DNA from: Candidatus Niyogiibacteriota bacterium
GTDB lineage: Bacteria > Patescibacteriota > Minisyncoccia > JACROR01
Assembly (NCBI GenBank): GCA_016214345.1
Contig: JACROR010000011.1
Coordinates: 1-48,100, forward strand
Length of the DNA stretch: 48,100 nt
Direction of reading: 5' to 3'
Shown here in pieces: positions 2,587-33,425 of this stretch. Made by a program: the position numbers and the translations under genes. The notes beneath the pieces were generated by a model. The model was not told the origin of the DNA, searched no databases, and saw only the letters and a list, made by a program, of their open reading frames with translations. How positions within the stretch are numbered: the stretch's first letter is position 1; the number at the start of each line of letters is the position of its first letter.

Positions 2587-3459
2587 ATGGCAACCCAACC
2601 TAAAGAAAAATATAAAACCATAACGCTGGATGAAAAGAGTTATCCGGCGCTGCTTCGTGAAATTCCCGACCCGCCTGAAACCCTCTACATGCTCGGCAAT
2701 TTCCATGATTGGCATAAACCCGCGATAGCGATCGTAGGCACCCGAAAAGCCACCTCTTACGGCCTGCGCGCGGCGCGCGCCCTCGGATGCGAATTGGCAG
2801 CCGCCGGCATAACCGTGGTAAGCGGACTCGCCCTGGGTATTGACGCGGAAGCGCACCGAGGCGCCTTGGAAGCGAACGGCAACACCGTCGCCGTTTTAGG
2901 GTCGGGCATAAACATGATCTATCCGGCGACCAATCGTCCACTCGCGGAAAAAATAATAGAGCAAGGCGGCGCTGTAATATCGGAATTTTCCCCAGATCTT
3001 CCGCCGGAAAAATGGACCTTCCCGCAAAGAAACCGCATAATCGCCGGATTATCAAACGTAACGCTCGTAATTGAGGCCCCGGAAAAAAGCGGCGCGCTTA
3101 TTACCGCTTACCTCGCGCTGGAATACAACCGCGAAGTCGCCGCCCTGCCCGGAGAAATAACTTCCCTCAATTCACAAGGCACGAACAAGCTCATAAAACT
3201 GGGAGCGGCTATAATAAGAAGTGCGGACGATGTGCTGGAACTCTTGGGATTAAACGCTCCTAATCCGAAAACTTTATTTGACAAATTGGACAAAATAGAA
3301 AATGTTATACTGCAATGCCTAAACAAACCGCAGAACAAAGATGAAATGCTTGACCTAACGCAATTGCCTGCAGACATATTAAATCAAAAATTGTCTTCGC
3401 TTGAATTAAAAGGCGCGATTAAAAATAACGGAGGATTATATGAAATTAGTAATAGTTGA
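2587..3459 (+). CDS. dprA: DNA-processing protein DprA (Smf)
   Basis: This cytoplasmic protein binds single-stranded DNA and loads RecA on incoming DNA during natural transformation. The 290-residue product shows the Rossmann-like DprA core: IAIVGTRKATSYG (about residues 47-59), VVSGLALGIDAEAHRGAL, AVLGSGINMIYPATN, a serine-glutamate-phenylalanine segment and FPQRNRIIAGLS. The last 65 residues form a small winged-helix-like tail, as in many DprA proteins. It has no ribosome-binding site; an immediately upstream TATAAT suggests near-leaderless expression. Its last 20 bases overlap the start of topA, so the two are probably translationally coupled. The family assignment is certain. Confidence 0.95.
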   Translation: MATQPKEKYKTITLDEKSYPALLREIPDPPETLYMLGNFHDWHKPAIAIVGTRKATSYGLRAARALGCELAAAGITVVSGLALGIDAEAHRGALEANGNTVAVLGSGINMIYPATNRPLAEKIIEQGGAVISEFSPDLPPEKWTFPQRNRIIAGLSNVTLVIEAPEKSGALITAYLALEYNREVAALPGEITSLNSQGTNKLIKLGAAIIRSADDVLELLGLNAPNPKTLFDKLDKIENVILQCLNKPQNKDEMLDLTQLPADILNQKLSSLELKGAIKNNGGLYEISNS

Positions 3460-5578
3460 GTCGCCCACCAAAGCCAAAACCATATCCAGATTTTTGGGAA
3501 AAGGTTTCACCGTGAAATCAAGCTACGGCCATGTCCGCGATCTTCCGGCATATAAACTGGGAATTGATCTGGAAAATAATTTTGAACCGCAATACGTCAT
3601 TCCCAAAAAATCCGCCAAAATAGTCAAAGATCTGAAAAGCGAATTGAAAAACGCGGACACTCTGATACTCGCGACCGATGAAGACCGCGAGGGCGAGGCT
3701 ATTGCCTGGCATTTACTCCAAGCGTTGGATGTGAATGGCGCCGGCGCCAAAAAGAAAAAAAAGGATGCGGATACTCCAAAAATTCCGCCCAAAATAGAAC
3801 GCATAGTTTTTCACGAAATAACCAAACCGGCTATAGAAAAAGCGCTTAGCTCGCCGCGGAACTTAGACCTTAACATGATAGACGCGCAACAAGCCCGCCG
3901 CGTTTTAGATCGTTTGGTAGGCTACAAACTGTCCCCTTTTCTCTGGAAAAAACTGATGCGCGGATTATCGGCCGGACGCGTGCAAAGCGTAGCCCTCCGC
4001 ATCATCGTAGAACGGGAAAAAGAAATAAAAGCCTTCCTGTCGCAGAAATACTGGCAAATAAACGCGCTGCTCAAAAAAACCGCCGCGACTGAAACCAACG
4101 AGACATTCCCGGCGCAAATGACCGCCATAGACGACAAGCCCATAGAAAAGCCCGGTCTTTTGGACGAAAATGAAACGCAAAAAATTTTAACGGATCTGAA
4201 CGCCGCGGATTGGAAAGTCGCGTCCATTGAAAAAAGACGCGTGGAAAAAACTCCCAAACCGCCCTTCACCACAAGTTCCTTGCAACAAGAAGCGTGGTCG
4301 CGTCTGCATTTTTCCGCCAAAAAAACCATGATGATCGCCCAGCAATTATACGAAGGCGTGGAATTAAAAAATAAAGGGCAGCTCGGTCTTATAACTTACA
4401 TGCGGACGGATTCCGTGAATATCGCGGGCGAAGCGCTCGCCGCCGCCTCGGCATTCATAAAGCAGGAACTGGGAGAAAAATATTCTCTGCCGGAGCCTCG
4501 CGTTTTCAAGACCAAATCCAAAACCGCGCAGGAGGCGCACGAAGCCATCCGTCCCACCCATCCGGACATCACCCCCAAATCCATAAAAACCGAATTAAGC
4601 CGCGACCAATTCGTGCTCTACGAAATTATATGGCAAAGATTTATCGCGTCGCAGATGGCGCCCGCTGTTTTTGACGGCACTACGGCAATAATTGACGCCG
4701 CCAACGCTTCGGCGGGACGCAAATATAGCTTTCATTCTTCCGGACAAATTATGCTTTTTGACGGATACATAAAAATTTACCCAATAAAAACCGAGGACTC
4801 GCTGTTGCCCAATCTTCAAGAAAACGACGCACTAACGGCGGAAAAAATAGAAAGCTCGCCGCATGAAACCGAACCGCCTCCGCGCTACACCGAAGCATCG
4901 CTCGTAAAAACTTTAGAAAAATTCGGCATAGGCCGCCCCTCCACTTACGCGCCCATTATCTCCACCATCCAAGACCGCGGCTATGTTACGAAAAACGACG
5001 CCAAAAGCTTTCTGCCCACCGAAATGGGAGAAAAAGTGGACAATATTTTGCTGGAACATTTCCCGCAAATCGTGGACATAGATTTTACGGCCAAAATGGA
5101 AGAAAGTTTGGACCAAATCGCGTCCGGAGAAAAAGCATGGCGGCCGACTCTCAAAGAATTTTACGAACCGTTTGAAAAACACCTCAAAGAAAAATACGAA
5201 ACCGTGGCAAAACAAAATTTGACCGAACCCACGGACGAAAAATGCGACAAATGCGGCGCGCCGCTCATCATCCGCTACGGCCGTTTCGGCAGATTTATGG
5301 CCTGCTCCGCCTTTCCGGAATGCAAATTCACCAAAGCATTGCCTCCGGTATCGCTAAACATCAAATGTCCCAAATGCGGCGACGGCGATGTGATAGAACG
5401 AAGAACCAAAAAAAGGCGGCTTTTCTACGGCTGTTCCAATTATCCCAAATGCGATTTTGCCACCTGGCAAAAACCCACGGGCAAATTGTGCATAGAATGT
5501 TCGTCGCCCTTAGTTGAATTGAAAAGCGGCATAAAATGCTCAAATAAAAACTGCAAATTCAAAGAAGGCGAAAAATGA
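3440..5578 (+). CDS. topA: DNA topoisomerase I (type IA)
   Basis: It relaxes negatively supercoiled DNA through a 5'-phosphotyrosine intermediate. The 712-residue protein opens with the TOPRIM domain (LVIVESPTKAKTI and LATDEDREGEAIAWHL), followed by the type IA core. GLITYMRTDS carries the expected active-site tyrosine at about residue 320, and the KFGIGRPSTYA segment follows. The C-terminus has three four-cysteine zinc ribbons, the first two with a CxxC...C-x4-5-C pattern. GGAGG 8 bases upstream inside dprA supports the start. The gene ends in TGA, overlapping the next start as ATGA; this use of TGA as a stop argues for the standard code. Confidence 0.97.
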   Translation: MKLVIVESPTKAKTISRFLGKGFTVKSSYGHVRDLPAYKLGIDLENNFEPQYVIPKKSAKIVKDLKSELKNADTLILATDEDREGEAIAWHLLQALDVNGAGAKKKKKDADTPKIPPKIERIVFHEITKPAIEKALSSPRNLDLNMIDAQQARRVLDRLVGYKLSPFLWKKLMRGLSAGRVQSVALRIIVEREKEIKAFLSQKYWQINALLKKTAATETNETFPAQMTAIDDKPIEKPGLLDENETQKILTDLNAADWKVASIEKRRVEKTPKPPFTTSSLQQEAWSRLHFSAKKTMMIAQQLYEGVELKNKGQLGLITYMRTDSVNIAGEALAAASAFIKQELGEKYSLPEPRVFKTKSKTAQEAHEAIRPTHPDITPKSIKTELSRDQFVLYEIIWQRFIASQMAPAVFDGTTAIIDAANASAGRKYSFHSSGQIMLFDGYIKIYPIKTEDSLLPNLQENDALTAEKIESSPHETEPPPRYTEASLVKTLEKFGIGRPSTYAPIISTIQDRGYVTKNDAKSFLPTEMGEKVDNILLEHFPQIVDIDFTAKMEESLDQIASGEKAWRPTLKEFYEPFEKHLKEKYETVAKQNLTEPTDEKCDKCGAPLIIRYGRFGRFMACSAFPECKFTKALPPVSLNIKCPKCGDGDVIERRTKKRRLFYGCSNYPKCDFATWQKPTGKLCIECSSPLVELKSGIKCSNKNCKFKEGEK

Positions 5579-7362: not shown

Positions 7363-8335
7363 CTAAATAGTGAACCGGTCTAGCGCGTCTTTTTCCACGC
7401 CTGATAAAGTATTGCTATCAAATACTTTTTCTTGCTCCGCATTGCCCACAATATCGTCTAACGCGGAAGCCAGCTGAACGGGAACATCGGACATATGCGA
7501 TTCCACGGGCGGCATATCGTTGCCGTCTAGCAAGGCTTCTTTCGGCGCGTCTTCCGAAGATACCGCTTCCGTTTCCGGCATAATATCCGTGTTGTCCTCC
7601 ATCCGGTCTTTGTCCACTTTGGCCAAGAAATTTTTCTTCCAGCACCCGCGTATTCTGATCAGGCAAACCGTCTTGCTTTCGCGCCCGCTCGTAAGCAATG
7701 CGCCTTGCCGCATGCTCCGCGTCGCGCACCGACAATTTTTTATAAACTATATCTTTAAAAAGTATTTTTTGCGCTTCCGGCTTGTCAGAGAGCATCAAAA
7801 GCGGACGAGTGTGGCCTTCGTTTATGGAACCGTCAACCAAAGCCTGTTTGATTTCTTCCGGTAGCACAAGAAGCCGCATGGTGTTGGCCACAAATTCGCG
7901 GCTTTTGCCGATCTTCGCGGCAATCTCTCTTTGCTTCATTCCGAAAGTATCCGCCATTTGTTTGAAAGCAATGGCGCGCTCAATTGGTCCCAAATCTTCT
8001 CTCTGCACATTTTCCACCAACGCCAATTCCAATTTAACTTTCTCCGCCGGCTCTGCGCGGATAATTACGGGCACTTGCAAGAGGCCCGCCAATTTAGAGG
8101 CGCGAAGCCGTCGCTCGCCTGCGATAAGCTCATAATTAACCGCAGTGCCATTTGGGACTTCGTGCTCACAACGCACCACCACCAATGGCTGTAAAACTCC
8201 ATACTGGCGGATGGATTCGGAGAGCTCACGCAATCGGCTTTCGTCAAATTCATGCCTCGGCTGAAAAGGATTGGGCTTTATTTTTTCGGTTTCTACCCAA
8301 AAAATGCTATTTTGAATTTGATTATTTTGATTCAT
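7363..8335 (-). CDS. parB: Chromosome-partitioning protein ParB, with apparent single-base frameshift
   Basis: ParB is a CTPase that binds parS and spreads on DNA for chromosome segregation. From the ATG at 8335 the frame encodes the N-terminal domain (NPFQPRHEFDE; IAGERRLRASKLAG, the GERR box) and the helix-turn-helix region (MKQREIAAKIGKSREFVANTMRLL), about 235 residues in all. Near 7630-7640 the reading frame becomes Arg/Gly-rich nonsense, while the +1 frame continues with a plausible acidic tail that ends at 7363 (EKDALDRFTI). Removing one base from the A5T3 run joins them into about 322 residues. This is either an assembly indel or a real mutation. The tail does not look like the usual ParB dimerisation domain. 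No parA is seen in the window. Confidence 0.8.
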
Positions 8336-8473
8336 CTATGTGTATGTGTATGAGAAATTATACTGCGGGGTGTTGTCTAAAATCTAACAAAAAAGTATAA
8401 TGGTTGGCAAGGGGAAAATTTATGCCGGAGCGCCCGTCTTGGGCGGGCAAAGCATTTTGAAAAATTAAAATTT
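8336..8473. other. Divergent intergenic region of parB and tRNA-Leu
   Basis: TATAAT occurs on the minus strand at 8357-8362 (for parB) and on the plus strand at 8396-8401 (for tRNA-Leu). A short CGCCC/GGGCG hairpin (8431-8445) follows. TGCCGGAG at 8423-8430 duplicates the first bases of the tRNA-Leu gene (from 8474), possibly a remnant of a partial duplication. Confidence 0.4.
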
Positions 8474-8560
8474 GCCGGAGTGGCGGAATTGGCATACGCG
8501 CACGACTCAAAATCGTGTTCCCGTAAGGGATTAAGGGTTCAACTCCCTTCTCCGGCACCA
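8474..8560 (+). tRNA. tRNA-Leu, anticodon CAA
   Basis: An 87-base gene with a full class II cloverleaf. The acceptor GCCGGAG pairs with CTCCGGC, the anticodon stem CACGA/TCGTG closes the loop CTCAAAA, and a long variable arm (TTCCCGTAAGGGAT-like) is followed by a T-arm with GGTTCAACTCC. The discriminator is A, and CCA is encoded at 8558-8560. Confidence 0.95.
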
Positions 8561-8761
8561 CAAGAGTACTTCAGAAAATATAGTCGCAAAGCTCCTTATT
8601 TTCTTGGTCGCATTTGTTCCCTGTTTGTCTAAACTCCCGTTTTGTCAAAGAGCGTAGCGATTTGTAACAAAACGCAATGCAGGGAGGCCGAAGGCCGAGT
8701 CGTAAGCAAGGCGATTGGTTACAAACAGCAATCCTGTAAGGGTTCGGAACGAATCTAATAC
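8561..8761. other. Intergenic spacer with dispersed degenerate repeat
   Basis: No gene is seen here. Bases 8634-8680 resemble, at roughly three quarters identity, the reverse complement of about 47953-48003 near the other end of the window; shared blocks include CTCCCGTTTTGTC, AAGAGCG and AAACGCA. A GGCCGAAGGCC hairpin and a TTTGTAAC/GTTACAAA inverted pair lie nearby. It may be a decayed mobile or RNA element. Confidence 0.4.
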
Positions 8762-8818
8762 CCCCTCATCTTTCAATGGATAGGATGCAAGCTTCCGAAG
8801 CTTGCGATGTAGGCCCGT

Positions 8819-8913
8819 CCCCACACTAATCCTCTTGTCGTTCAATGGACAGGACACCTCCCTCCGAAGGAGGAGATGCAGGTTCGATTCCTGCCGAGAG
8901 GATTAGTGTGGGG
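8819..8913. repeat. 12-bp inverted repeat bounding the inner tRNA-Arg
   Basis: CCCCACACTAAT (8819-8830) and its exact complement ATTAGTGTGGGG (8902-8913) lie immediately before and after the inner tRNA; the right arm shares its first A with the tRNA discriminator base. The same bases form the outer part of the 22-bp inverted repeat around the GIY-YIG gene at 32780-33076. Confidence 0.8.
8831..8902 (+). tRNA. tRNA-Arg, anticodon CCG (inner, intact copy)
   Basis: A 72-base gene with a good cloverleaf. Acceptor CCTCTTG pairs with CGAGAGG (one G-T pair), D-stem GTTC/GGAC, anticodon stem CCTCC/GGAGG with loop CTCCGAA, and T-stem GCAGG/CCTGC with the standard loop TTCGATT. The discriminator is A and no CCA is encoded, unlike the neighbouring tRNA-Leu. 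It reads CGG. It lies wholly inside the T-loop of an older tRNA-Arg of the same anticodon. Confidence 0.92.
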
Positions 8914-8981
8914 GTGAGAATTCCTACTGAGGGGACAACAAAATAGGTTATAGTTTCTAGGTTATAACTTACGAGTGACAA

Positions 8982-9506
8982 TCATTTTGTAGCTCGGCGG
9001 TTTTTCATTACATAAAAAATAAGAATTCCTGAAAGAATGCCTACAACCGCCCCGCCTAAAATATCCGCCGGCCAATGAATACCGCCAACCACTCGGGATA
9101 TGGAAATTAAAACCGCGCCTGCAAAAAATACGCTGCCCCAAACGCGATCGTACAAAAACACGACCATAGCCAAAGCGAAGAAAAACGCCGCGTGCCCGGA
9201 AGGAAAAGCTGAACCAGTACTATGATCAATCAATCGGTAAACGTCCACTACCTCAAACGGCCGCGGTTTGGCATAAAAAAATCGGATGATCTCCGTGACA
9301 ATAAAGCGCGAAAATAAAACCGCGATCAAAGAATCTATCAACATCCGAAAACCGCGCTGATTGCGATAAAAAATGGCGAGCGCCACAAGTCCACCTACCA
9401 GCCAATACTCCAAATAGCTCGCCAAAAAAATAAAAAATGTATCCAGCCAATCAAATCTCCCAGCGAAACTATTTAAATAATTAAATAAAGTAAGATCCAT
9501 AATCAA
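8982..9506 (-). CDS. PAP2-family membrane phosphatase (undecaprenyl-diphosphatase-like)
   Basis: The likely role is removal of phosphate from a lipid pyrophosphate such as undecaprenyl pyrophosphate, recycling the cell-wall lipid carrier on the outer membrane face. The 174-residue protein has five to six hydrophobic segments and the three acid-phosphatase motifs: YAKPRPF (about 78-84), FPSGHAAF (101-108) and SRVVGGIHWPADILGG (137-152), with the catalytic histidines present. It is the last gene of the minus-strand block that includes sua5 and the nucleotidyltransferase. Members of the family act on different lipids, so the substrate is inferred. Confidence 0.88.
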   Translation of the reverse strand: MIMDLTLFNYLNSFAGRFDWLDTFFIFLASYLEYWLVGGLVALAIFYRNQRGFRMLIDSLIAVLFSRFIVTEIIRFFYAKPRPFEVVDVYRLIDHSTGSAFPSGHAAFFFALAMVVFLYDRVWGSVFFAGAVLISISRVVGGIHWPADILGGAVVGILSGILIFYVMKNRRATK

Positions 9507-16286: not shown

Positions 16287-17028
16287 CCATAATGTGCGTG
16301 ACTCGGTGACGCACATTATGGTAAAATATCTCTATGAGAAAATTTACTCCAGAAAAAGAAAATTTTTACCACATCGTAAATCGCGGAACCGAAAAACGAC
16401 GAATATTCCTGAATCACAAAGATTATGAAAGATTTATTGCCAATATGGTCGCCTTTAATACCGAAAACGATCCCCGACTTAATATTTCACGATATAATCT
16501 TAATAAAATTTTTCAGCACATCCCCACCAATCGGCTGGTTAAAATACATGCTTTCTGCCTACTACCGAACCACTTTCATTTATTATTAGAACAGTTGGCT
16601 GAAAACGGGATCTCTCGATTTATGCACAGATTAGAGATGGGCTATGCCAGATATTTTAATATTTTGCATAACAGAAACGGCAATCTTTTCCAGGGCGCAT
16701 ATAAATTGGTGCCAATGGAAGATGAGGCGCATCAATTATATTTACCTATTTATATCCACCTTAATCCGCTTGACTTGTTGCCGACTGAAAAACATTGGCG
16801 AGAAAATGGAATTAAAGATCACCACCAAGCCATGGCTTTTCTTAAAAAATATCCGTGGTCAAGTTTTACAGAATACTACGGAACTGGCAACCTCCCCTTC
16901 ATAAGCAAAGAATTACTAAATGATCTTTATAAAAATTCTGACGATTGGGATCGTGCAATAATGTCTTGGTCCTCCAAAAAGTAAATATCTTCTTAAAAAA
17001 TGTGCGTCACCGAGTCACGCACATTTTT
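16287..17028. mobile_element. RAYT element: IS200-like transposase gene between inverted REP hairpins
   Basis: The transposase gene is bounded on the left by a 13-bp-stem hairpin with 9-base loop (16287-16321) and on the right by a 12-bp-stem hairpin (16996-17028). The 25-base cores, 16292-16316 and 17000-17024, are exact reverse complements of each other, including the loops (GACTCGGTG versus CACCGAGTC). This is the layout of a RAYT with a REP doublet. No other copies of this hairpin were spotted in the window. Confidence 0.88.
16334..16984 (+). CDS. REP-associated tyrosine transposase (RAYT, Y1/IS200-like)
   Basis: HUH-type single-strand transposases of this family cut and join REP hairpins. 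The 216-residue protein shows YHIVNRGTEKRRIF at the N-terminus, PNHFHLLLE with the metal-binding HFH pair (H80 and H82), and the catalytic tyrosine in HRLEMGYARYFN (Y104). NGNLFQGAYKLVPM and YIHLNPLDL follow, the usual Y1 core. There is no disruption, so it may be active. It has no Shine-Dalgarno; TAAAAT just after the left hairpin (16322-16327) lies 6 bases before the ATG, suggesting leaderless expression. The right hairpin with a T-run probably ends the transcript. Confidence 0.93.
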   Translation: MRKFTPEKENFYHIVNRGTEKRRIFLNHKDYERFIANMVAFNTENDPRLNISRYNLNKIFQHIPTNRLVKIHAFCLLPNHFHLLLEQLAENGISRFMHRLEMGYARYFNILHNRNGNLFQGAYKLVPMEDEAHQLYLPIYIHLNPLDLLPTEKHWRENGIKDHHQAMAFLKKYPWSSFTEYYGTGNLPFISKELLNDLYKNSDDWDRAIMSWSSKK

Positions 17029-18399: not shown

Positions 18400-18663
18400 T
18401 TATTCCAAAGACATGATCTGCAAACCGTTTTCTTCTATTTCCTTTTTCTGGCCAAAATCATCCGATTTGAAACGCAAAACATAACCAACTTTCTTTTCTA
18501 TTTTTCTGCCCGTATATCTAGAGGTTTGTGGATCCCACTCTTCAAGCATCAGTGTATCGCCTTCCGCCGCCTCAAAATCAGCCGTCCTTACTTCAAATTT
18601 TTTCTTGCCAAACGCCACCAGTTCAAAAAATTCCGGCCAAATTTTCTTTTTGATCAATGCCAT
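18400..18663 (-). CDS. ASCH/DUF3850-like small RNA-binding domain protein
   Basis: An 87-residue protein. The pattern KIWPEFFELVAFGKKKFEVRTADF followed by EGDTLMLEEWDP and a GYVLRF strand fits the ASCH/PUA-like fold of DUF3850 proteins, which often begin with a lysine-rich loop, an E-R pair and a GD turn. A role in binding RNA or nucleotides is expected from the fold only. Its ATG overlaps the last base of the metG stop, placing it in the metG operon. Confidence 0.8.
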   Translation of the reverse strand: MALIKKKIWPEFFELVAFGKKKFEVRTADFEAAEGDTLMLEEWDPQTSRYTGRKIEKKVGYVLRFKSDDFGQKKEIEENGLQIMSLE

Positions 18664-20258
18664 TATTTAGACGCGGCCTCTTTATCCAATCGCGGGAAAA
18701 GTCCGACGTGATCTTTTACCGTAAAACTTTTCATTTTTTCCAAAGGCATATTGGGTGTTATGCCAAAAATATCAAATATTTTCGTAGCGGTTTCTGGCAT
18801 GAACGGCAGAAGCATCCGCGCCGCGGAGGACACTCCGTAAGCCAAGTTCCACAATACCGCCAGAGTTTTTTCCCGATCGGTTTTAACCAATTTAAACGGC
18901 TCGTAGTTCTGAACATAATGATCCAACTCTCCCACCAGCCGCCAAATTGCATCTCCCGCCTTTTGCAAATTCAGCTCGTTCATCGCGCGCTCATATTCCG
19001 GCAAAATGAATTTTTCTATCACATAATCAGCGCTGAAATATTCGGTTTCAAAACCTTCCTCTTTCGCGCTATCCGGCTGAAGTCCGATATTTTTTTTGAA
19101 AGGAACGGAGCTTATCAAATCCTCGTCCGGACGCGAAACCGCGCCATCGGCATACAACTTTATCATCTTGCTCGTCCTGCTCACTAAATTGCCAAGCCCG
19201 TTCGCCAAATTGGCATTATACGCGTCTCTTAATTTATCCTCGGTAAAATCGCCGTCTTCAAAAGTGGAAGTCTCCCGCAAAAGAAAATATCGCACCGCCT
19301 CCGCCCCGTATTTTCCAACCATCGCGAACGGGTCCACGACATTGCCAAGTGTTTTGGACATTTTCTGCCCGCCGGAAGTGATAAATCCATGAGCTACGAT
19401 CTTTTTGGGCAACGGCAAACCGGCGGATAAAAGCATCGCTGGCCAGATCGCGGCATGAAAGCGCAAAATATCCTTGCCGATCAAATGAATATCCGCTGGC
19501 CAAAAATTCTGAAACAATTCGTCATGGCCGCTGCCAAATCCCAGTGCCGAAATATAATTAGTGAGCGCGTCGCACCACACATACATGGTCTGCTCCGGAT
19601 CTTCCGGTACGGGAACACCCCAAGATATATCACGGGAAGGGCGGGAAAAACTCACATCCTCCAATCCTTCGGCAAGCAGAGCTAAAATTTCATTCTTACG
19701 GGACACGGGCACGATCTCCATCTCGCCCGACTCAACAGCGCTCTTTATCTTATCCGTGTATTTAGAAAGCCGGAAAAAGTAATTTTCTTCTTCAATGACT
19801 TCCGGCGCCTGCCCATGGTCCGCGCACTTTCCATCTATCAAATCTTTCTCCGTAATAAAAGCTTCGTGCCCCACGCAATAGAGTCCCTGATAAGATTTTT
19901 TGTAAATATCGCCTCTTTCCGCCAATTTTTTCCAGATCAGAACGGCCGCCGGCCAATGTCTCGCTTCATCCGAAGTACGTATGAAATCATTATTGGAAAT
20001 ATTTAAAGTACGCAACAAGTCGCGCACTTTCAAAGAATTTCCATCAACAAAATCACGGACCGGCACGCCCTCCTTTTCCGCCGAACGCGCGATCTTCGCG
20101 CCATGTTCATCCGTACCCGTTAAAAAATAAACCTCCTTGCCAAGAAGTTTATTATAACGGGCTATAACGTCGGCCATGGCCGCCTCTTTGGCAAAACCCA
20201 TGTGCGGAGGCGCATTTACGTAAGCGATGGCCGTAGTGATATAAAAATTTTTACTCAT
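18663..20258 (-). CDS. metG: Methionine--tRNA ligase (short form)
   Basis: MetRS charges initiator and elongator tRNA-Met. The 531-residue protein has the class I HIGH-type motif AYVNAPPHMGFA (about residues 12-23), TGTDEHGAKIARSA, and GQKMSKTLGNVV, followed by an alpha-helical anticodon-binding domain. It lacks the C-terminal EMAP/Trbp111-like tRNA-binding domain, as in other compact MetRS. The cysteine pair typical of the metal-binding knuckle is not evident, although a CVGHEAF...CADHG stretch is present. It starts 8 bases inside the upstream AI-2E-type gene. Confidence 0.96.
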   Translation of the reverse strand: MSKNFYITTAIAYVNAPPHMGFAKEAAMADVIARYNKLLGKEVYFLTGTDEHGAKIARSAEKEGVPVRDFVDGNSLKVRDLLRTLNISNNDFIRTSDEARHWPAAVLIWKKLAERGDIYKKSYQGLYCVGHEAFITEKDLIDGKCADHGQAPEVIEEENYFFRLSKYTDKIKSAVESGEMEIVPVSRKNEILALLAEGLEDVSFSRPSRDISWGVPVPEDPEQTMYVWCDALTNYISALGFGSGHDELFQNFWPADIHLIGKDILRFHAAIWPAMLLSAGLPLPKKIVAHGFITSGGQKMSKTLGNVVDPFAMVGKYGAEAVRYFLLRETSTFEDGDFTEDKLRDAYNANLANGLGNLVSRTSKMIKLYADGAVSRPDEDLISSVPFKKNIGLQPDSAKEEGFETEYFSADYVIEKFILPEYERAMNELNLQKAGDAIWRLVGELDHYVQNYEPFKLVKTDREKTLAVLWNLAYGVSSAARMLLPFMPETATKIFDIFGITPNMPLEKMKSFTVKDHVGLFPRLDKEAASK

Positions 20259-32779: not shown

Positions 32780-33076
32780 CCCCCACACTAATTAAGGATT
32801 TGAATCATGTTCTATGTTTATATATTACAAAGTTTGAAAGATAAACAATTATACATCGGCTACTCCGAAGATTTGAAACGCAGAATACAAGAACATGATT
32901 CAGGCAAAAATAAATCAACAAAATACCGAAGACCATTTAGACTGGTTTATTACGAGGCGTATCAATCGAAAATGGATGCGCAAAACAGAGAAACCAATTT
33001 AAAGCTTTTTGGTAGGGCGTTGGGAGGATTAAAGCGGAGAATTAAAATCAGCTTAAATCCTTAATTAGTGTGGGGG
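32780..33076. mobile_element. GIY-YIG mini-cassette with perfect 22-bp terminal inverted repeats
   Basis: The 22-base left end (32780-32801, beginning CCCCCACACTAAT) and the right end (33055-33076) are exact complements. They enclose only one short gene. The right end contains that gene's stop codon and overlaps the first four bases of tmRNA. An 11-bp palindrome GGGTC-T-GACCC (32772-32782) abuts the left end. The element sits between smpB and ssrA. The outer 12 bases match those bounding the inner tRNA-Arg at 8.8 kb. Confidence 0.7.
32807..33064 (+). CDS. Small GIY-YIG nuclease-domain protein
   Basis: An 85-residue single-domain protein. YVYILQSLKDKQLYIGYSEDLKRRIQEHDSG carries the degenerate GIY (YVY) and intact YIG elements with the catalytic arginine (DLKRR). 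A later RE pair (AQNRETNLK) may provide the metal-binding glutamate. Family members act on DNA as homing or repair nucleases; the small bacterial group (UPF0213-like) is of unclear role. It is entirely inside the inverted-repeat cassette. There is no Shine-Dalgarno. Confidence 0.88.
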   Translation: MFYVYILQSLKDKQLYIGYSEDLKRRIQEHDSGKNKSTKYRRPFRLVYYEAYQSKMDAQNRETNLKLFGRALGGLKRRIKISLNP

Positions 33077-33413
33077 ATGATCGGCTTCGAAGGAGGTTTG
33101 ATAATTTTGCTTCAGGCAGAGCATGGCAACACAACTCTTTAAACTGATTGCCAAAAATCATTGCAAACAAACAACTTGCATACGCTTAACGCCTAAGGGC
33201 GTTTCGCCGTCCGCTTCGCTGACATCCTATACGCGAAACCGGGCGTAAACTTATAGGGTCTGATTCTGCGATGTCTCTAAACAGAATGACCAACAGAGGC
33301 AAACCTTTCCGGTTTTTGTCTGATTAACACCGTAAAGTTCTACCAATCAGTCTAAGTCTGTAAACCGCGAATTAAACAACCTTCTCACGCGGGTTCGATT
33401 CCCGCCGTCTCCA
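33073..33413 (+). ncRNA. ssrA: tmRNA (SsrA)
   Basis: The 5' end GGGGATG (33073-33079) pairs with CGTCTCC (33406-33412); the T-arm GCGGG-TTCGATT-CCCGC is standard and the discriminator is A. GGATGATCGGCTTCGA is typical of tmRNA 5' ends. The resume frame begins at GCA (33163) and reads ANKQLAYA followed by TAA at 33187-33189, a short tag ending in LAYA rather than LAA or VAA. Pseudoknot-rich sequence follows. No CCA is encoded after the discriminator. The first four bases belong also to the right end of the GIY-YIG cassette. The resume codon is inferred. Confidence 0.93.
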
Positions 33414-33425
33414 CAAGAATAACGA

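Follow-up and report, generated by a model that had tools for sequence, protein, structure and literature searches.

A tRNA gene nested in the T-loop of another tRNA gene, and the recurrence of this arrangement in the Patescibacteria

Can a complete tRNA gene lie inside a second tRNA gene of the same kind and, if so, which of the two does the work? This question is raised by a locus in the draft genome of a Candidatus Niyogiibacteriota bacterium (assembly GCA_016214345.1, contig JACROR010000011.1), of which a stretch of 48,100 nucleotides was analysed (hereafter, the window). A first-pass annotation made from the sequence alone had proposed that a tRNA-Arg(CCG) is nested in the T-loop of another tRNA-Arg(CCG), the acceptor, anticodon and T-stems of the outer gene pairing perfectly across a 109-base insertion bounded by a 12-bp inverted repeat. 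It had interpreted the insertion as an element that carried a replacement tRNA into its own target gene, or alternatively as a segment excised from the transcript.

In order to establish whether this observation was correct, the sequence was examined. The locus and the features of the window that are relevant to it are as follows.

8474 to 8560, plus strand: tRNA-Leu(CAA), upstream on the same strand and probably in the same transcript.
8762 to 8813, plus strand: 5' part of the outer tRNA-Arg(CCG), with the acceptor strand 8762-8768, a D-stem with a U10-U25 mismatch, the anticodon arm 8788-8804 (CCG at 8795-8797) and the 5' strand of the T-stem 8809-8813.
8814 to 8830, plus strand: left end and left arm of the palindromic insert, CCCG-T-CCCC-ACACTAAT, in which CCCG stands where the T-loop bases TTCG (54-57) are found in uninterrupted relatives.
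8831 to 8902, plus strand: inner, intact tRNA-Arg(CCG), with discriminator A at 8902 and no encoded CCA.
8902 to 8919, plus strand: right arm of the insert (8902-8913 pairs with 8819-8830) and its right end GTGAGA, for which the consensus elsewhere is GGGG-TGAA.
8920 to 8935, plus strand: 3' part of the outer tRNA, with ATT (positions 58-60), the 3' strand of the T-stem 8923-8927, the 3' acceptor strand 8928-8934 and discriminator A at 8935.
16334 to 16984, plus strand: Y1 (IS200-like) transposase related to REP-associated tyrosine transposases, a candidate mobiliser of palindromes.

In the outer gene, the acceptor stem CCCCTCA/TGAGGGG (7/7 pairs), the anticodon stem CAAGC 8788-8792/GCTTG 8800-8804 (5/5) and the T-stem GTAGG/CCTAC (5/5) are all perfect, and the two strands of the T-stem are separated by 109 nt, as reported in the first-pass annotation. 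The latter had overlooked the U-U mismatch in the D-stem (TTTC/GGAT). The inner gene was identified as tRNA-Arg(CCG) by ARAGORN and matched Rfam RF00005 with 61.8 bits. The inverted repeat, CCCCACACTAAT at 8819-8830 and ATTAGTGTGGGG at 8902-8913, is paired at 12 of 12 positions. It is extended by one G-C and two G-U pairs and stacks directly on the inner acceptor stem. The fold of the 177-nt segment reached -83.7 kcal/mol (z = -5.2), which is more than expected by chance. Furthermore, the 5' part of the outer gene was 90% identical over 51 nt to the genome's own tRNA-Arg(GCG) (E 7e-14), and ARAGORN called a tRNA-Arg(CCG) on the outer gene when the insert was removed, but nothing when the insert was masked by N. 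At this step, it was concluded that the nested arrangement is real.

Next, we asked whether this arrangement is unique. A DNA search showed that the only tRNA-Arg(TCT) locus of the same genome (contig C8, about 18,560-18,740) has the same plan: an outer tRNA-Arg(TCT) split in its T-loop, a palindrome (CGCCCCCCACTTTATG/ATATAAAGTGGGGGGTG), an inner TCT tRNA and the same right junction GGGGTGAGAATTCCTACTG. Its outer gene has C33 instead of U33 and a broken D-stem pair. Just after this nest (1614-1740 of our locus L015), a tRNA-Val(TAC) is preceded by the 5' half of another tRNA-Val(TAC) and by one arm (TTCACCCCGTTAGATATTT), which may be a one-sided nest or a remnant.

To look for further cases, a covariance model of any tRNA whose acceptor helix is extended by 12 bp was built and searched over 383 genomes of the class. 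Apart from the inner tRNAs of three nests, its training set contained ordinary tRNAs with invented flanks, and one nest was itself given invented flanks; as the model leans to Arg, amino-acid frequencies should not be read from it. Inspection of the best matches outside this genome again revealed nests, split in the T-loop, D-loop, variable region or anticodon loop; dozens more were found in all, some of them three deep. Two outer tRNA-Gln genes contained palindromes in more than one loop (D, anticodon and, in one of them, T). The arms were not always of the same type. In five loci the inner tRNA was surrounded by a different, REP-like repeat (CCTGCCCGCC..GGCGGGG), so more than one palindrome family carries tRNAs, and a different recurrent insert, a double hairpin TCAGCC..GGCTGA-TCCGCC..GGCGGA, was observed in the anticodon loop (36/37) of several outer tRNAs, at the classical intron position.

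A pattern describing the T-loop form was then searched over 84,980 GTDB species and gave 30 hits. The 18 hits without a tRNA are near the number expected by chance, which we estimate at about 14. The 12 hits with a tRNA are all in Patescibacteria (Portnoy-, Moranii-, Nealson-, Niyogi-, Parcu- and Peribacteria) or in unclassified bacterial MAGs, and in all 12 the inner gene lies on the strand of the outer gene. The T-loop patterns found nothing in 2.9 million viral contigs, which gave no support to a phage origin.

Comparison of 17 T-loop nests made it possible to formulate their rules. The bases TTCG (54-57) are replaced by CCCG-CCCC...GGGG-TGAA, whereas A58-N-T60 remain, and the motif CCCG-CCCC(C)RCACY is found in nearly all of them. 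Wherever a whole T-loop outer gene could be read, its anticodon was that of the inner gene, in 14 cases of 14 (TCT 4, GCG 3, CCG 3, Ile TAT 2, Met CAT 1, CCT 1); shuffling the labels would give this result with a probability of about 2e-8. A joining test with ARAGORN over 90 loci had also yielded 14-15 outer genes with the same anticodon, but as its shuffled-flank control gave 7% as well (chimeras of real outer halves), the anticodon rule rests on the exact T-loop set only. The inner stems had no mismatch in 17 of 17 cases. In contrast, the 14 whole outer genes had 0-5 mismatches per 21 pairs (mean 0.86), three further outer genes were truncated, and T54-T55 were replaced in nearly all. Inner and outer genes were 40-81% identical in 13 of 14 nests, and 97% in one Moraniibacteriota case.

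In order to read the site before insertion, uninterrupted loci were sought in relatives. The nearest one, from the same family, was uninformative: it has a different tRNA-Arg(CCG) elsewhere and different DNA downstream of the syntenic tRNA-Leu(CAA), where a gene that looks like a recombinase or integrase starts (3000-3900 of our locus L106). Uninterrupted sites were found in one family (our f66), in which six genera share one syntenic locus downstream of the same protein gene (69-79% identical to the copy of genome G291). Four genera carry tRNA-Ile(TAT) with a normal T-loop (GGTTCGAGTCC), and in genome G264 it stands alone. In two genera (G256 and G291), it is split by CCCG...TGAA with an inner Ile(TAT). 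TTCG is replaced without any duplication of target bases. Whether the two nested Ile loci have a single or a repeated origin could not be read from the tree, which was too weak. In addition, G134, G218 and G291 keep remains of an older outermost Ile copy around the tRNA, split in the anticodon loop and badly decayed in G134 and G291, while G152 keeps its left part. G291 is thus a three-level doll, and the oldest outermost copies are the most decayed.

The palindrome also occurs without a tRNA. The same ends with short hairpins (TTGCCCC-GTTAGAT...ATCTAAC-GGGGTGAA) were found at unrelated sites in 32 of the 383 genomes, the reversed-pattern control being much rarer, although some matches of this short pattern are chance or conserved gene sequence. 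Copies of the GTTAGA type lie in long open frames (762, 621, 513 and 215 codons), between genes and in tRNA D-loops, and reversed ends (TTCACCC...GGGCAAG) also occur. In the genome of the window itself, only the two nested copies were recognised, and an 8-residue end motif alone was no more frequent than its reversed control. All three T-loop copies without a tRNA sit in outer genes already broken by another nest or truncated. This is what one expects if a bare palindrome in a single-copy tRNA gene is lethal and only a copy with a replacement tRNA survives.

Many tRNA-Lys nests carry a larger structured insert. Nine loci with tRNA-Lys D-loop or variable-loop inserts share a plan, a GTYAAAR..YTTTRAC hairpin followed by a GGGATTGCTT..AAGCAATCCC domain, with what look like compensatory changes between two of them (L173 and L189), which suggests an undescribed structured RNA or element. 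In two families, a GIY-YIG nuclease gene (PF01541) lies inside an interrupted tRNA-Lys(TTT) gene (genomes G041 and G277), between the outer 5' part and the inner Lys tRNA, and the outer anticodon arm is duplicated on both sides. This hints at cleavage-driven homing in at least that branch.

To address which gene is likely to be functional, the tRNA complement of the genome was established. All 46 tRNAs found are single copy per anticodon (45 anticodons), except two Met CAT, and CCG and TCT exist intact only as inner genes (the assembly is 92.6% complete). We therefore infer that the inner gene must be the working one. The only plus-strand promoter-like site in 8350-9000 is at 8373-8401, ahead of tRNA-Leu, and no terminator-like site was detected. 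Both counts are near chance and constitute weak evidence, but the nest is probably transcribed with tRNA-Leu, which would explain why only same-strand nests are seen.

Taken together, these results support, with reasonable but not full confidence, the first interpretation of the first-pass annotation. A short palindromic mobile DNA element (ends YYYG-CCCC...GGGG-TGAA), whose hairpin tip carries a complete tRNA gene, would have inserted in the T-loop of a tRNA gene of the same isoacceptor, on the same strand. The insertion would disable the outer gene, and the inner tRNA, transcribed from the promoter of the outer gene, would take over its job. The outer copy would then be free to decay and to collect further, tRNA-less palindromes and, because the functional copy is again a target, the cycle could repeat and give Russian-doll nests. 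This reading rests on the recurrence with matching anticodons, on the uninterrupted native tRNAs at the syntenic locus in sister genera, on the tRNA-less copies of the palindrome and on the inner gene being the only intact CCG tRNA found in the genome. That the element chooses its own target is supported only as a matching isoacceptor. The match is inferred to come from selection, since only a cell whose lost single-copy tRNA is replaced survives, and/or from homology-guided homing. Movement as DNA is likewise inferred; no autonomous element with a transposase between the ends was found and no palindrome-plus-tRNA unit was caught moving between two loci. Candidates are a Y1/RAYT-type transposase or, for the Lys relatives, a GIY-YIG endonuclease. 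The genome contains 6 Y1_Tnp matches, 5 of them over the cut-off; the one in the window matched PF01797 (E 2.8e-9) and NCBIfam REP_Tyr_transpos with 36.6 bits, under its cut-off of 80, but nothing ties these transposases to the palindrome. Release of the inner RNA by RNase P and 3' nucleases is also inferred, and the continuous helix from arm to acceptor stem (19-22 bp) should hinder RNase P. Finally, half of the whole T-loop outer genes still have perfect stems, which needs frequent recent insertion or some constraint.

Two other explanations appear unlikely without being excluded. In the somewhat less improbable one, a tRNA-less palindrome first invades one copy of a temporarily duplicated tRNA gene and an intact local copy is placed in its hairpin tip by template switching or break repair, so that the inner tRNA is host-derived and no cargo moves. 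This would explain the matching anticodon and strand without selection. It fits better than imported cargo the two cases in which the inner tRNA is nearly identical (the 97% Arg-TCT nest) or identical (the Lys nest of G041) to the outer one. Tandem partial copies in two loci (L141 and L210) look like replication slippage, and the GIY-YIG gene with duplicated flanks in the two Lys nests suggests break repair. However, in 13 of 14 T-loop nests the two genes differ widely while their different stems are fully paired, which neutral decay of a copy would not give, and in the window the inner gene is closest to the tRNA-Arg(CCG) of genomes G040/G015, the outer one to the host's own tRNA-Arg(GCG).

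The alternative of the first-pass annotation, in which the insert behaves as an intron-like unit, is more doubtful. The inner tRNA would be cut out of the transcript and the outer halves, held by the 12-15-bp helix, would be joined by RtcB into a second tRNA with a non-canonical T-loop, perhaps for a non-translational job; this would be a bacterial tRNA splicing route in which the intron is itself a tRNA. An RtcB ligase is indeed present (E 6.5e-166), the joined loop CCCGATT has 7 nt and is accepted by ARAGORN, 7 of 14 outer genes have perfect stems, the inserts sit in loops and the wobble pairs next to the arms recur. Nevertheless, the joined T-loop would have CC (or CG) instead of T54-T55 in nearly all nests, outer genes show stem mismatches, C33 or lost 5' halves while the inner gene is intact, and the same palindrome lies in protein-coding frames and in both orientations. 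Moreover, a scan with the Rfam gathering thresholds of the window and 18 loci found tRNA and tmRNA only (in the window, a tmRNA at 33073-33416 with the tag ANKQLAYA), and no group I or II intron. As for an assembly artefact or a chance pseudogene next to a tRNA, the genome is a 32-contig draft and the parB gene ahead of tRNA-Leu (7363-8335, minus strand) is split into two overlapping frames (305 aa with a nonsense C-terminus, and 116 aa) by a frameshift or an assembly error, but this explanation is refuted by two independent loci in one genome, by many nests in independent assemblies with identical junction rules and by the uninterrupted sites in relatives.

tRNA genes are among the most conserved genes, and a short insert that breaks such a gene while supplying its replacement shows how a parasite can colonise essential genes without a splicing ribozyme or integrase. 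It may also explain unusual tRNA genes in Patescibacteria, which tRNA finders report as ordinary while missing the outer copies. No tRNA gene nested in a tRNA gene was found in a library of 5.39 million papers that does not cover subscription articles or preprints. Apparently, the arrangement had thus not been described, and the combination of a palindrome that breaks a tRNA gene and carries its replacement fits no known class that we could name, although its parts resemble known things.

The Rickettsia palindromic elements (PMC3767692 and references there) are likewise short palindromes, of about 100-150 bp, dispersed in a bacterial genome and found inside existing open frames without destroying them. 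Here, the palindrome can carry a whole tRNA gene in its tip, lies in loops of tRNA genes and replaces the gene it breaks, and its sequence is unrelated as far as can be seen. REP/REPIN palindromes mobilised by RAYT (Y1) transposases probably share the palindrome with short conserved flanking bases, and Y1 transposase genes are present in this genome. Integrative elements and phages probably use tRNA T-loops as attachment sites and restore the tRNA 3' end, so that gene function is preserved by what the element brings; here there is no integrase between the ends and no direct repeats, the insert of about 106 nt contains no gene other than the tRNA, and a complete second tRNA is supplied rather than a restored end. 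Intron-containing, split and permuted tRNA genes of archaea and algae (PMC3978253) are interrupted at several loop positions, including the D and T loops, but are joined at bulge-helix-bulge motifs, whereas here the joined product would lack T54-T55 in nearly all T-loop nests and the insert is itself a tRNA. Finally, group I introns in bacterial tRNA genes and IStrons (PMC4227781) are also mobile inserts in a tRNA, and a GIY-YIG gene accompanies two Lys nests, but in the nested genes function is, in our reading, kept by replacement and not by splicing.
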